Source: Acidobacteriota bacterium
Lineage (GTDB): Bacteria; Acidobacteriota; Blastocatellia; Pyrinomonadales; Pyrinomonadaceae
Direction of reading: 5' to 3'
Length of the DNA: 41,198 nucleotides
Assembly: GCA_029557535.1 (NCBI GenBank)
Contig: JAKQII010000143.1
Span: forward strand, 1-41,198
Made by a program: the position numbers and the translations under genes. How positions within the stretch are numbered: the first letter of the stretch is position 1; each line of letters opens with the position of its first letter. The notes under the pieces were generated by a model. That model was not told the origin of the DNA. It ran no database searches and was given only the letters and a program-made list of their open reading frames with translations. This document shows, one piece after another, positions 22,713 through 33,546 of the stretch.

Positions 22713-24563
22713 TCAGAAGCGGTTGGCGTCGAGCCAATCGGAAAGCACGACGAGGTGCCAGACATGCGACCAGAGAACGCCGGAGCGCCGTTCGGAAAAG
22801 TCGTCCCAGAGCCGGGTCAGACGTCCGGGATCGAGCAGCGCCCGCCCGGCGAGCGCCGCGATCCGTGCTTCGCAAAACTCCCGCAGTTCCGCGCGCATCC
22901 ACTTTTCCCAAGGCAGGACGAACCCCATTTTTGGCCTGTGCACGATCGAATCGGGAAGGAGCGGCGCGAGCGAGTCCACCAGGAGCCGTTTCGGGAAGTC
23001 CGGATATTTGTATTCGTCGGGGATCTCGAGGACATATTCGACCAGCTCGTAATCGAAGAACGGTTCGCGGACCTCAAGGGCCGACGCCATGCTGAACTGG
23101 TCCGCGTCCTTGAGCAGCACGTTCTGGGTGTAACCTAGAAACTCGGCGATCGAGAACTGGCTCAGAAGCGGAAATTCGGCGATTGCCGCGGCGCGGCCCG
23201 CCAGTTCCTTGGTGATGTTGAAGGTGTCCGGCTTCCCGCCTTCAAGTTCGCAGATCAGCCGATCGGAAAGGACCTGCCGGGTCCGCGGATAAAAGTGCTC
23301 GATCCCGTTTCCGGACTCAAGGACAGCGCCGATCCGCTGGTGCTTCGAGTTTGCCGACAGGGCAAGGACGGCACCCGCGGCGCGGCGTACGATCCGCGGC
23401 GTGAGCGAAACCGCCCCGCGGCGGAACTTCAGCCAGTTGATGAAGTTCGGGTAGCCGGCGAAAAGCTCGTCACCGCCGACTCCCGACAGCGCGACCTTGA
23501 GGCCGGCGGCGCGTGTCGCCTTCGAGACGACGTAAGTGTTGACCCCGTCGCCGCTTGGCGAATCGGCGCCGGCGAGCGCGGCCGGAAGCGATTCGAGAAA
23601 GTCGCCCGCGCGGAGCCGCACGCTCTGGTGATCGGTCCCGAACCTTTTCGCGATCGTCTCGGCGTGGACCGATTCATCGAACTCAGGCTCCTCGAAATTG
23701 ACGGAAAAGGTGCTGACCGGCGCGTCGCTGATCTGCGACATCAGGGCGACGATCGCGCTCGAATCGATCCCGCCCGACAGAAAGGCTCCGAGCCGGACGT
23801 CGCTGACCAGGCGGCGTTTGACCGAGTTTTCGAGCAGTCCGCGAATCCGTTCGCGGACCTCGGGTGCGGACTTTTCGCTGAATGCTCCGCGGCGGCCGTC
23901 GATCGACCAGTAGCGGCCGGTGCGCAGCCCGCCCGTGCCGAATTTCGCCCAGCAGCCCGCGGGAAGCTGGCGGATGCCCGCAACGATCGTTCCGGGCGAG
24001 TACACGGACTGGAACGCCAGGTAATCGCGGAGTCCGGCCCGGTCGATCGTCCGGTCGGCAAGACCCGAGGCGAGAACGGAGCGGATCTCCGAGGCGAAGA
24101 CAAGATTCCTGCCGGTTAGGCAGTAATAGAGCGGCTTGACGCCCATCCGGTCGCGGGCAAGAAAAAGCTCGCGCGTCAGGCGGTCCCAGATGGCGAACGC
24201 GAACATCCCGTTGAGCATGGCGAGGCAGTCGCTTCCGAACCGCTCGTAAGCGGCGAGGATGGTCTCCGTGTCCGACGCGGTGCGGAACGGATATTCGGGC
24301 ATTCGCTCACGGACCTCGCCGAAATTGTAAATCTCGCCGTTAAATGTGATTATGAAACGGTTTTCCGTGTCCGACATCGGCTGGTTGGCGCTCTCTGAGA
24401 GATCGATGATCGAAAGCCGCCGGTGTCCGAGCGCGATGCCTTCGTCGATAAATCGCCCGGCGGCGTCGGGTCCGCGGTGGGCCAGCCGGCCGGTCATCGC
24501 ATCGATCGCCGCTTCGGCATGCTCGCGTTCCATCGGGCCGGCCAGACCGGCTATTCCGCACAT
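22713..24563 (-). CDS. asnB: Asparagine synthase (glutamine-hydrolysing) homologue
   Basis: MCGIAGLAG N-terminal Cys nucleophile at start 24563; HRRLSIIDLSESANQPM; LGAFLSGGIDSSAIVALMS PP-loop; GVGGDELFAGYP. Confidence 0.93.
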   Translation of the reverse strand: MCGIAGLAGPMEREHAEAAIDAMTGRLAHRGPDAAGRFIDEGIALGHRRLSIIDLSESANQPMSDTENRFIITFNGEIYNFGEVRERMPEYPFRTASDTETILAAYERFGSDCLAMLNGMFAFAIWDRLTRELFLARDRMGVKPLYYCLTGRNLVFASEIRSVLASGLADRTIDRAGLRDYLAFQSVYSPGTIVAGIRQLPAGCWAKFGTGGLRTGRYWSIDGRRGAFSEKSAPEVRERIRGLLENSVKRRLVSDVRLGAFLSGGIDSSAIVALMSQISDAPVSTFSVNFEEPEFDESVHAETIAKRFGTDHQSVRLRAGDFLESLPAALAGADSPSGDGVNTYVVSKATRAAGLKVALSGVGGDELFAGYPNFINWLKFRRGAVSLTPRIVRRAAGAVLALSANSKHQRIGAVLESGNGIEHFYPRTRQVLSDRLICELEGGKPDTFNITKELAGRAAAIAEFPLLSQFSIAEFLGYTQNVLLKDADQFSMASALEVREPFFDYELVEYVLEIPDEYKYPDFPKRLLVDSLAPLLPDSIVHRPKMGFVLPWEKWMRAELREFCEARIAALAGRALLDPGRLTRLWDDFSERRSGVLWSHVWHLVVLSDWLDANRF

Positions 24564-24784
24564 ATTGAAGAGCATACAACAAAGCCGCTCAGGTTGGACA
24601 ACGGGTCGCGGACCGCTCCGGCCGGAACCTGTTCAGAAATTACCTGAGGTTTTTTCGGGTGAATTCTGGAGTTTTCGTGAAATCGGATTGCAAATCACCC
24701 GTAACTGTGGCAAATACGGTAATTATCGGTTCATGTCATGGTTGAGATGTCGGCGCGGCGACGATTAGAGACCACATTAAGTCA

Positions 24785-31099: not shown

Positions 31100-31128
31100 T
31101 TGATAATTACCAATAGGCGTGACATAAT
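31100..31128 (+). promoter_or_regulatory. Strong sigma70-like promoter candidate for the PqqD/Cys-rich gene
   Basis: TTGATA (31100-31105) - exactly 17 bp - CATAAT (31123-31128); about 100-nt 5' leader to ATG 31236. Confidence 0.6.
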
Positions 31129-31235
31129 CTCTCGGACGTTGTAACGATTGATCGATATTTTTGTATTTGAAAGTTGATTTTGGTTCGATAAACCTTAACC
31201 AGACCCAGACCATGGAGAAACTGCAGGAGGAGACA

Positions 31236-31745
31236 ATGACGAATTCACAAATCCCGAAAGCTCGCAAGAATGGATTGGTGATACAGGAAACAGGGGACGA
31301 AGTGCTCGTTTATGATGTAGACAGCAACCGCGCGCATTGCCTTAACCGCACCGCCGCCTTCGTTTGGAAGTCATGTGACGGTCGAAGGTCGGTTCCGGAG
31401 ATTGCCGCTCTCCTCGGAAAAGAACTCGCGAACAAGGTCGACGAGGATCTGGTGTGGCTCGCGATCGATCAGCTTTCAAACGAGAGCCTTCTCGAATCGG
31501 GCATCAGGTTGAAACGGAGCGGTTTTTCCAGGCGTGACGCGATCCGGAAGATCGGCCTCGCGGCCGCTGTCACGCTTCCGGTGGTCGCGATGCTCAGTTT
31601 CCCGAACGGCGCGCTGGCGGTGACCTGCGCGGCGTCCTATTGCGGCACAAACGATCCGGGAAACGGTTGCGGCGGCGGCCAGTATTGCTGCAACAGCGGT
31701 GGTCTCTATCGGTGCCAGGTCGCGCCGTGTTCCACTCCTTGCTAG
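31236..31745 (+). CDS. PqqD-domain protein with internal twin-arginine-like signal and 8-Cys C-terminal tail (candidate RiPP-like precursor/carrier)
   Basis: aggagg SD at 31225-31230 before ATG 31236. PqqD-like VLVYDVDSNRAHCLNRTAAFVWKSCDGRRSVPEIAALL; FSRRDAIRKIGLAAAVTLPVVAMLSFPNGALA; tail VTCAASYCGTNDPGNGCGGGQYCCNSGGLYRCQVAPCSTPC. Confidence 0.88.
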   Translation: MTNSQIPKARKNGLVIQETGDEVLVYDVDSNRAHCLNRTAAFVWKSCDGRRSVPEIAALLGKELANKVDEDLVWLAIDQLSNESLLESGIRLKRSGFSRRDAIRKIGLAAAVTLPVVAMLSFPNGALAVTCAASYCGTNDPGNGCGGGQYCCNSGGLYRCQVAPCSTPC

Positions 31746-31769
31746 TTGTCCCGCAGAATTGCATTGTAG

Positions 31770-31803
31770 AATTGGCTTGAGGTCTCCTCAGGCCAATTTT
31801 TTT
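31770..31803 (+). terminator. Intrinsic terminator/attenuator between the PqqD/Cys-rich gene and the hprK-like gene
   Basis: AATTGGCTTGAGG-tct-CCTCAGGCCAATT (13-bp stem with one G-T pair) followed directly by TTTTT (31799-31803). Confidence 0.88.
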
Positions 31804-31804
31804 C

Positions 31805-32650
31805 ATGCACGAGGCGTTTCAGCACGATTTCGAAACCGGACGGTGGTCCGGCCGTATTGGATTCGCGCTTCACGGCGTGAGCTTCGGAATCCGGTTCGAC
31901 GACGCGGCCGCCGGGGAAGTGGTCCGCCGGATCGTCCCGCGCGCCGCCCTTCCCTCTGACTACCTTTCGTCCGAACACCGGTTTTCACTGATCTCGGCCG
32001 GCGGAGACGGTGCGAACGGCCTTTTTTTTGATACGCGGGATTTCGAGCCCGTCTTGAAGTTCGACCGGCTGGACGGCGGCACGGAAAAGGGACTCGAAAC
32101 CAAATTCCAGTTCGCGCTCGCGCTGGCGGCGGCACCGAGGCTTTTCTTTCTTCACGCCGGTGCCGTCGCGATCGGGAACATCGGAGTCCTCGTTCTGGGC
32201 CGGACGGGGTCCGGCAAAACCACACTCGTCGGCGAATTGCTCAGACGCGGGGCGGACCTCTGCACCGACGACTGCGCGATCCTCGATCCCGCCGGAAATC
32301 TCTACCCGAATCCGGCGCCGCTGGCGGTCAGGACCGGAGACGGACGCGCGTTCAGGGGGCCGGAGGAGTTCGGATCAATCGCCGCGTCGCGGGTCGTTCC
32401 CGTCGCTCTCGTCGTGGCGGCCCGCTATGAGCACGGCGCGGCTTGGGCACCCGAAGCGGAAGCGTCCGGCGGCGGCGCGTTCAACGTTCTCGGCAATCTG
32501 TTTTACCCGCCGGCGATCCGCGAGTTTCCGAGGGAGACCCTCGGGTTTGCGGGACTTATTGCGAAACGGGGGATCTATTCGGGAACCAGGGGGGAAGCGA
32601 CGGAAGTCGCTGAATGGATCTTCGGGACGATCGGACGGGGGCATGGATGA
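31805..32650 (+). CDS. HPr kinase/phosphorylase-like protein (HprK-related kinase)
   Basis: RLFFLHAGAVAIGNIGVLVLGRTGSGKTTLVGELLRRGADLCTDDCAILD: HAGAVA plus Walker A typical of HprK-like kinases. Confidence 0.85.
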   Translation: MHEAFQHDFETGRWSGRIGFALHGVSFGIRFDDAAAGEVVRRIVPRAALPSDYLSSEHRFSLISAGGDGANGLFFDTRDFEPVLKFDRLDGGTEKGLETKFQFALALAAAPRLFFLHAGAVAIGNIGVLVLGRTGSGKTTLVGELLRRGADLCTDDCAILDPAGNLYPNPAPLAVRTGDGRAFRGPEEFGSIAASRVVPVALVVAARYEHGAAWAPEAEASGGGAFNVLGNLFYPPAIREFPRETLGFAGLIAKRGIYSGTRGEATEVAEWIFGTIGRGHG

Positions 32651-33546
32651 AATCTGACCGTCCCGAAACGAATCTTGACGACGCAGCGAAGTTCGGAATG
32701 CTTCAATACAAGGTCGCCGAGCACGAGCTTGCGTCGATCTGGCGGACATTCCGACAGGCCGGGCTGCACCCGATTCTGATCAAGGGCTGGGCGGCGGCGC
32801 AGTACTATCCCGAACCGTGGACGCGTTCGCTCGGGGATTTCGACCTCGCGTTCCCGGCCGCCGAGTACCGGAACGCGGAGGCCGTTTGCGCCGGTAATCT
32901 GCCGAACCGGACGGATCTTCACCGGGAGCTTCGTCATCTCGATACCGAACGATGGGAACGGCTCCTCGAAAGGTCGGTTGAGCTTGAATGCGCCGGCGAG
33001 ATTATCCGGGTGCTGTGCCCCGAGGACCATCTGCGGGTGCTTTGCGTTCACTGGCTCAACGACGGCGGCGCGTACCGGGACCGGCTCCGGGACATCGGAA
33101 ATCTGCTGACGAAACACCGCGGGTCATTCGATTGGGAATTGTGTTTGGCGCCGCTGACGGCGGTCCGCCGGCGCTGGATCGAGGTCGCCGTCGCTCTCGC
33201 CGACCGCTATCTCGAGGATACTGACCTCTCGTTCGTCCCTTTCGCGGCGAAATTCGGCACGGTCCCGGGCTGGGTGATCAAAGCCCTTGAACGCGAATGG
33301 GGGTCCGGGAGGCGGCTTGTGCCGCTTCATTTCGTGCTGCGCGAACCGAAGGAACTCCTGATCCAGATAGGGAAGAGGCTCCCGCCCAATCCGATCCAGT
33401 CGACGATCGAACTCGAGGCCGATCTTGACGAGCGCCCGCGTGCAATGATCCAGACGGCGAACCTCTTTAAGCGGATAAGCCCGTCGTACAAGCGTGTTTG
33501 GCCGGCGCTGAAACGACTGCTGGGACCCGGACCGAGGAACTGGTGA
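32647..33546 (+). CDS. Nucleotidyltransferase family protein (NTP_transf_5-like)
   Basis: AGLHPILIKGWAAAQYYPEPWTRSLGDFDLAFP (KG...R..GD.D motif); LCPEDHLRVLCVHWLNDGGAYRDRLRDIGNLL. ATG 32647 overlaps hprK-like stop. Confidence 0.82.
   Translation: MKSDRPETNLDDAAKFGMLQYKVAEHELASIWRTFRQAGLHPILIKGWAAAQYYPEPWTRSLGDFDLAFPAAEYRNAEAVCAGNLPNRTDLHRELRHLDTERWERLLERSVELECAGEIIRVLCPEDHLRVLCVHWLNDGGAYRDRLRDIGNLLTKHRGSFDWELCLAPLTAVRRRWIEVAVALADRYLEDTDLSFVPFAAKFGTVPGWVIKALEREWGSGRRLVPLHFVLREPKELLIQIGKRLPPNPIQSTIELEADLDERPRAMIQTANLFKRISPSYKRVWPALKRLLGPGPRNW

Follow-up and report, generated by a model that had tools for sequence, protein, structure and literature searches.

What might a PqqD-domain protein with a cysteine-rich tail, an HprK-like kinase and an NTP_transf_5 nucleotidyltransferase do together? 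Their genes, here named PRE, KIN and NTP, follow one another in a 41,198-nucleotide stretch of an Acidobacteriota genome (contig JAKQII010000143.1; hereafter, the window). A preliminary description of this DNA had reported the trio, with eight cysteines in the tail and an ATGA overlap between KIN and NTP, and had proposed that the PqqD domain acts as a recognition element in cis. All three genes, the eight cysteines and the overlap are indeed present (Table 1). It had overlooked a twin-arginine signal inside PRE (residues 97-128), a strong intrinsic terminator that separates PRE from KIN, two further PRE-KIN pairs elsewhere in the same genome, and split relatives known as HPr-rel-A.

Table 1 Features of the PRE-KIN-NTP cassette and the basis of each assignment.
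Feature	Positions in the window	Strand	Basis
Candidate sigma-70-type PRE promoter, TTGATA-17-CATAAT, TG before the -10 element	31100..31128	+	consensus match only
PRE Shine-Dalgarno sequence AGGAGGAG, clear	31225..31232	+	sequence
PRE, putative RRE-Tat-Cys-rich precursor, 169 residues	31236..31745	+	sequence, profile and family comparison
PRE PqqD/RRE domain, residues 1-90	31236..31505	+	PF05402 4e-8; AlphaFold2 pLDDT>90; Foldseek
PRE internal twin-arginine signal GFSRRDAIRKIGLAAAVTLPVVAMLSFPNGALA, residues 97-128, AxA site	31524..31619	+	pattern and family conservation
PRE predicted exported tail VTCAASYCGTNDPGNGCGGGQYCCNSGGLYRCQVAPCSTPC, 41 residues (129-169), 8 Cys	31620..31742	+	sequence
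PRE Thr130, directly ahead of the first tail Cys, candidate acceptor	31623..31625	+	Ser/Thr bias in the family; inference
Intrinsic terminator/attenuator in the PRE-KIN gap, hairpin then 7 T	31768..31804	+	MFE z -4.35
KIN, HprK-like peptide-kinase candidate, 281 residues, H-K-D-D residues	31805..32650	+	profile, fold, alignment
NTP, NTP_transf_5 protein, invariant GDxDL and D-x-H	32647..33546	+	profile, alignment

The N-terminal part of PRE scores above the cut-off of the Pfam PqqD family. In the AlphaFold2 model, this part is composed of three strands (residues 14-19, 22-27 and 32-36) and three helices (38-46, 53-64 and 70-82), all confidently predicted. Foldseek returned the TbiB1-leader complex (PDB 5v1u) as the best match of the domain (E 2.4e-4, TMt 0.73), and the nearest folds are those of lasso-peptide B1-leader complexes; a sequence search of the PDB with PRE gave no match. 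The predicted structure thus supports an RRE-like domain, that is, a RiPP recognition element, in the same polypeptide as its presumed substrate. The domain is a candidate for binding a precursor or leader, as judged from the fold match to leader-bound TbiB1. The model does not show the tail docked on the RRE (low confidence). In the RRE-Finder survey, 21% of PF05402 proteins are longer than 110 residues without any other Pfam domain, and the PRE family fits there (PMC12710340). The fusions discussed in that survey likewise join a PqqD-type RRE to something else, in those cases enzymes; kinase, Tat and cysteine are absent from its text (PMC12710340).

KIN matches Pfam Hpr_kinase_C at 1.7e-5, below the cut-off of this model. 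On the other hand, its family is predicted with a pLDDT of 92 and adopts a PEPCK/HprK-type fold (AlphaFold2, Foldseek). Its catalytic residues are almost constant: the histidine is found in 61/63 sequences, the lysine and the first aspartate in 63/63, and an acid at the second position in 62/63 (E in 57, D in 5), where the window KIN has D-D at its acid positions. Hence, the modelled KIN displays both the H-K-D-D residues and the fold of HprK-like peptide kinases. NTP matches NTP_transf_5 at 1e-18, above its cut-off, and the G-D-x-D and D-x-H residues of its family are nearly or fully invariant. The structure predictions that the preliminary description had called for place PRE with RRE folds and KIN with PEPCK/HprK folds, and the identification of the three genes in that description is confirmed.

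The three genes also occur together. Among 97 genomes, KIN is present in 48 of the 50 that have PRE (Fisher p 1.8e-21) and NTP in 46 of the 50 (p 3e-17). When one genome per genus is retained, KIN and NTP are each found in 25 of 26 PRE genomes (p 5e-12). Conserved co-occurrence was the test that the preliminary description had set for its own proposal, and the outcome is decisive: KIN and NTP are constant partners of PRE, and the trio is found again in other genera and phyla. At the level of single loci (95 distinct PRE loci, two multi-copy genomes left out), KIN lies on the same strand within 1.5 kb of PRE in 57 cases and is absent there in 38, NTP is found in 67, and both are found in 48, of which 45 are ordered KIN-PRE-NTP. 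The PRE-KIN-NTP order of the window occurs where the kinases are divergent and form a small subclade (the window, L084 and L107; support 100/99). At L107 (7147-9435), two different KIN genes flank one PRE and are followed by NTP, an arrangement that may be ancestral to the window order.

One alternative would make the pair a toxin-antitoxin or defence unit, with the NTP_transf_5 protein as a nucleotidyltransferase toxin and the HprK-like protein as its kinase. The Vibrio NTP does show a weak similarity to AbiEii (0.04), and KIN weakly matches defence models, through the P-loop only. However, neither PRE nor NTP has a PADLOC match, a secreted third component is conserved, and the chromosomal position of the cassette is stable in many genomes, which makes this explanation extremely improbable.

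The RRE-Tat-Cys fusion is observed in 58 of 97 relatives identified by profile search. Among 297 sampled genomes of the phylum, the family clusters in the class to which the window genome belongs. It was also detected in Gemmatimonadota, Chloroflexota, Vicinamibacteria and one MAG titled Abditibacteriaceae, by a scan of the collection that is biased towards near relatives, having used the closer alignment A6 (the wide alignment A5 was too diverse). A KIN-PRE pair is carried by the large plasmid of Gemmatirosa kalamazoonensis KBS708 (NZ_CP007129, L176), a named strain whose genome is complete, which makes the cassette experimentally reachable.

The middle part of PRE carries the features of a Tat substrate: an S/T-R-R motif, a hydrophobic stretch and an AxA site. 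This Tat-type pattern is found in 94/99 members of the PRE family versus 27/860 neighbouring control genes (3.1%), and TatC is present in 6/6 genomes tested. The NCBIfam Tat model TIGR01409 gives the window PRE a score of 10.1, below its cut-off of 16.7, so that the case for the signal rests on its conservation in the family. Export of the product, already put forward in the preliminary description, is very likely and is explained by this built-in signal; dependence on Tat is suggested by the sequence pattern. A lipoprotein was considered and rejected, as the lipobox L-[AS]-[GA]-C is missing before the first tail cysteine, where the window has AVT-C. In the family, position -3 relative to this cysteine is mostly Ala and position -1 mostly Ser or Thr.

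The tail itself shows two regularities. First, the number of tail cysteines ranges from 2 to 18 and is even in 130 of 133 distinct precursors; of the three exceptions, two appear to be truncated. The nominal p value (4e-35) comes from related, hence non-independent, sequences, and the effect persists among paralogs only 27% identical. An even number suggests that all the cysteines are paired, most simply as disulfides, rather than used one at a time in thioethers or azoles, which the parity disfavours. No recurrent neighbour family of lanthipeptide, sactipeptide or azole type was noticed in the neighbourhoods of the clustered loci. Second, a Ser or Thr directly precedes the first tail cysteine in 88/133 precursors (66%), as compared to 18% before the other cysteines, again among sequences that are not independent. 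After cleavage at the AxA site, this residue would lie near the mature N-terminus, as does Ser3 of the BsfK substrate; Thr130 of the window PRE may thus be an acceptor site.

The even cysteine count, together with a knottin-like C-C-CC-C-C spacing in 28/98 tails, recalls inhibitor cystine knots, and the tail of one relative weakly matches Pfam cystine-knot families, below threshold. The eight cysteines of the window tail do not fall among these 28, and it is not classified as a knottin. One could nevertheless imagine an ordinary mini-protein family, structural or toxin-like and in part knottin-like, that is secreted and has acquired a vestigial PqqD domain, with KIN and NTP as neighbours of other function. 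We consider this quite improbable in view of the near-perfect co-occurrence of PRE with KIN and NTP at the genome level, the fact that the RRE is the best-conserved part of PRE, and the retention of all the parts in the split form described below.

Overall, we find it rather probable that the cassette makes a disulfide-rich peptide that carries its RRE in cis, is phosphorylated by KIN and modified by NTP before export, leaves the cell through Tat, and has a split counterpart in HPr-rel-A. According to this scheme, the N-terminal RRE of PRE would stay in the cytoplasm and recruit KIN and NTP in cis, an arrangement in line with the recognition role proposed in the preliminary description, given an RRE-like domain fused to the presumed substrate and two constant partners. 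KIN would phosphorylate a Ser or Thr of the tail, most likely the one directly before the first cysteine (Thr130). NTP would then extend the phosphate with a nucleotidyl or sugar-phosphate group, in the way that PsmK and PsmN jointly act in pseudomycoidin. The internal twin-arginine signal would send the tail through Tat, signal peptidase would cut after A128, and all the tail cysteines would pair as disulfides outside the cell. We infer the phosphorylation of the tail, its site, the order of the steps, an extracellular function and any anchoring to exopolysaccharide.

Precedents for this chemistry come from lasso peptides. In lasso clusters, a kinase of this type phosphorylates a precursor Ser and uses the H-K-D-D residues (PMC10368454, PMC9266682). 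The RRE protein BsfB1 accelerates the HprK-like kinase BsfK on core Ser3 (PMC10368454). In the PsmK-PsmN pair of pseudomycoidin, the nucleotidyltransferase PsmN is required for hexosylation of the phospho-Ser (PMC9266682). By analogy, NTP probably transfers a nucleotidyl or glycosyl group onto the tail; these systems are a precedent for the window cassette, not a proof. Phosphorylated or glycosylated lasso peptides (paeninodin with PadeK, BsfK/BsfB1/BsfN, PsmK/PsmN) share with it an RRE and an HprK-like kinase, and some of them a nucleotidyltransferase. In contrast, the window family has its RRE fused to the substrate, even cysteine numbers, and a Tat-type signal where lasso clusters use an ABC exporter. 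The cassette was not assigned to a lasso cluster, as neither a B2 peptidase nor a C cyclase lies beside it; the preliminary description had rightly seen no transglutaminase-like lasso protease nearby. Transglut_core3 (PF13471) is absent from 6/10 cassette genomes tested. A homologue of this B2-type family (E 1.1e-21) is encoded on another contig of the window genome (G000:C245:3671-3940) and possibly belongs to a separate lasso cluster. The window also encodes an asparagine synthetase (22713-24575, minus strand) within the exopolysaccharide locus; it starts with MCGIAG and is glutamine-dependent, and is therefore not evidence for a lasso cyclase.

The surroundings of the cassette raise the question of a glycan partner. 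Next to it, on the upstream side, lies the exopolysaccharide locus (Wzz/Wzc, a MatE-type flippase, glycosyltransferases, UDP-GlcNAc 2-epimerase and a WecA-like protein), and TsaB lies downstream. This position recurs in many genomes, and a split cassette of Sphingomonas adjoins glmU and glmS. A glycan link of the peptide, which the preliminary description had put forward as a possibility, is plausible, but the arrangement may only reflect shared synteny. In a more explicit version, KIN and NTP would make a sugar-phosphate handle on the peptide, which neighbouring glycan enzymes would extend or ligate; the role of PsmN in hexosylation points in the same direction (PMC9266682). However, the neighbourhood, which TsaB, RimI, SSB, AccA and DnaE share, could be vertically inherited, and about 80 PRE copies in the two multi-copy genomes (G029 and G040) are not beside KIN or NTP. 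We regard this version as somewhat unlikely.

These two genomes belong to the same family as the window genome. G029 (L071-L075) has 44 PRE genes with one KIN and one NTP; G040 (L056-L070) has 38 PRE genes and one recognisable KIN, without NTP, indicating that NTP is not always needed. Many of the copies are orphans or stand in tandem, four genes at most, and a few have internal stops. Within multi-copy genomes, paralogs are 46-54% identical in the leader and 27% in the tails, which resembles the conserved leader and hypervariable core of RiPP precursor families. Sequence comparison thus portrays a rapidly expanding repertoire of precursors served by one kinase, and in the proposed scheme that single kinase would act on all of the roughly 40 precursors of such a genome. 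The window genome encodes two more PRE-type proteins on another contig, each with an HprK-like kinase nearby.

The same contrast between leader and tails could also be read as a checkpoint, in which KIN would phosphorylate the PqqD domain or the linker and thereby release the Tat signal, the secreted peptide remaining unmodified apart from its disulfides. The PqqD domain would then resemble a cis version of the Tat proofreading chaperones. A fixed kinase alongside many different tails, a Tat signal placed directly behind the RRE, and the third of tails that have no Ser or Thr ahead of the first cysteine would all suit such a mechanism. On the other hand, it explains neither the nucleotidyltransferase nor the enrichment of Ser and Thr at the start of the tail, and the relatives of KIN in lasso clusters modify core or C-terminal residues. 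We judge it unlikely.

The hairpin between PRE and KIN is strong, and terminators follow 36/135 PRE genes, as compared to 4/135 shuffled sequences and 1/47 KIN genes. A generic terminator scanner alone gave no excess over shuffles, so that the comparison across loci carries the evidence. A partial terminator after PRE would keep the precursor in excess over the products of the downstream genes.

Further indications come from HPr-rel-A, the name under which NCBI annotates a three-gene system of a PqqD-type "peptide chaperone" (TIGR04353), a kinase (TIGR04352) and a nucleotidyltransferase. Like these systems, the window combines PqqD-type, HprK-like and NTP_transf_5 components in one operon. Six HPr-rel-A loci were compared, from a Sphingomonas plasmid, a Vibrio plasmid and four Acidobacteriota genomes, the latter identified by TIGR04352 matches above the cut-off. 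In 6/6, the PqqD or PqqD-like gene is directly preceded by a gene for a small Tat-signal protein. These proteins have an N-terminal extension of 17-35 residues, an RR pair, a hydrophobic stretch and AxA. As 3.1% of the control genes show the pattern, its presence at all six loci corresponds to P about 1e-9, a post hoc value, since the Tat pattern was relaxed after a stricter one had missed 4/6 of the split-form peptides (it was rescored on the same control genes). In the Vibrio alfacsensis plasmid, the PqqD-like protein is an unannotated 84-residue ORF (L178:5715-5969), matched by no model, that sits between the Tat-signal protein and the HprK-related kinase A.

HPr-rel-A systems have a free-standing PqqD and, as a separate protein, a Tat peptide with its own N-terminal extension, whereas in the window family PqqD, Tat signal and Cys-rich tail form one protein. 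The architecture of the window thus looks like a fused form of the annotated cassette, and the finding of the same parts both split and fused provides a gene-fusion argument that RRE and Tat peptide work together. By the same argument, HPr-rel-A would be the split form of the scheme, with a Tat-signal peptide bearing an N-terminal leader and a separate RRE, and the Tat-signal peptide is likely the substrate of these systems. This proposal makes the function of HPr-rel-A cassettes testable; no description of a substrate was found in the open literature. The two forms are nevertheless distinct. A long, fully supported branch separates the KIN family from the HPr-rel-A kinases. The window KIN was not retained as a TIGR04352 member (32.5 bits for a cut-off of 200), nor were the PRE relatives as TIGR04353 members (0/40 above the cut-off).

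The cassette thus holds an intermediate place, with HPr-rel-A cassettes on one side and phosphorylated RiPPs that depend on an RRE on the other, and there is a substantial chance that it constitutes a class of its own. More specifically, we tentatively propose, with slightly less than even confidence, a new class of ribosomal peptides: Tat-exported, disulfide-rich (glyco)phospho-peptides with their own RRE, a kinase and a nucleotidyltransferase acting in cis, and HPr-rel-A as the split form. No description of an RRE-Tat-Cys cassette was found in the open literature searched, and among the results listed there was no open-access paper on TIGR04352, TIGR04353, HPr-rel-A or RiPPs with twin-arginine signals (subscription papers were outside the scope). 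If the proposal holds, this would be a RiPP design that unites recognition element and core in one protein. The family, with 38 and 44 copies in two genomes, also uncovers a large pool of presumably disulfide-rich, exported peptides in soil Acidobacteria mostly known from metagenomes.

Other genes were observed around members of the family. At L070 (5398-6033, minus strand), a 2OG-Fe(II) oxygenase (PF13640, 1.4e-8) adjoins four tandem PRE genes and is possibly an additional tailoring hydroxylase. Homologous 410-residue proteins are encoded between PRE and other genes at L005 (3372-4607, contig C26 of the window genome) and L056 (5827-7083); the L005 protein contains HxD. Finally, the window genome encodes a free-standing 85-residue PqqD-type protein with no kinase nearby (L006, G000:C292:2751-3008), flanked by multihaem-cytochrome-like and glutamate racemase-like genes.
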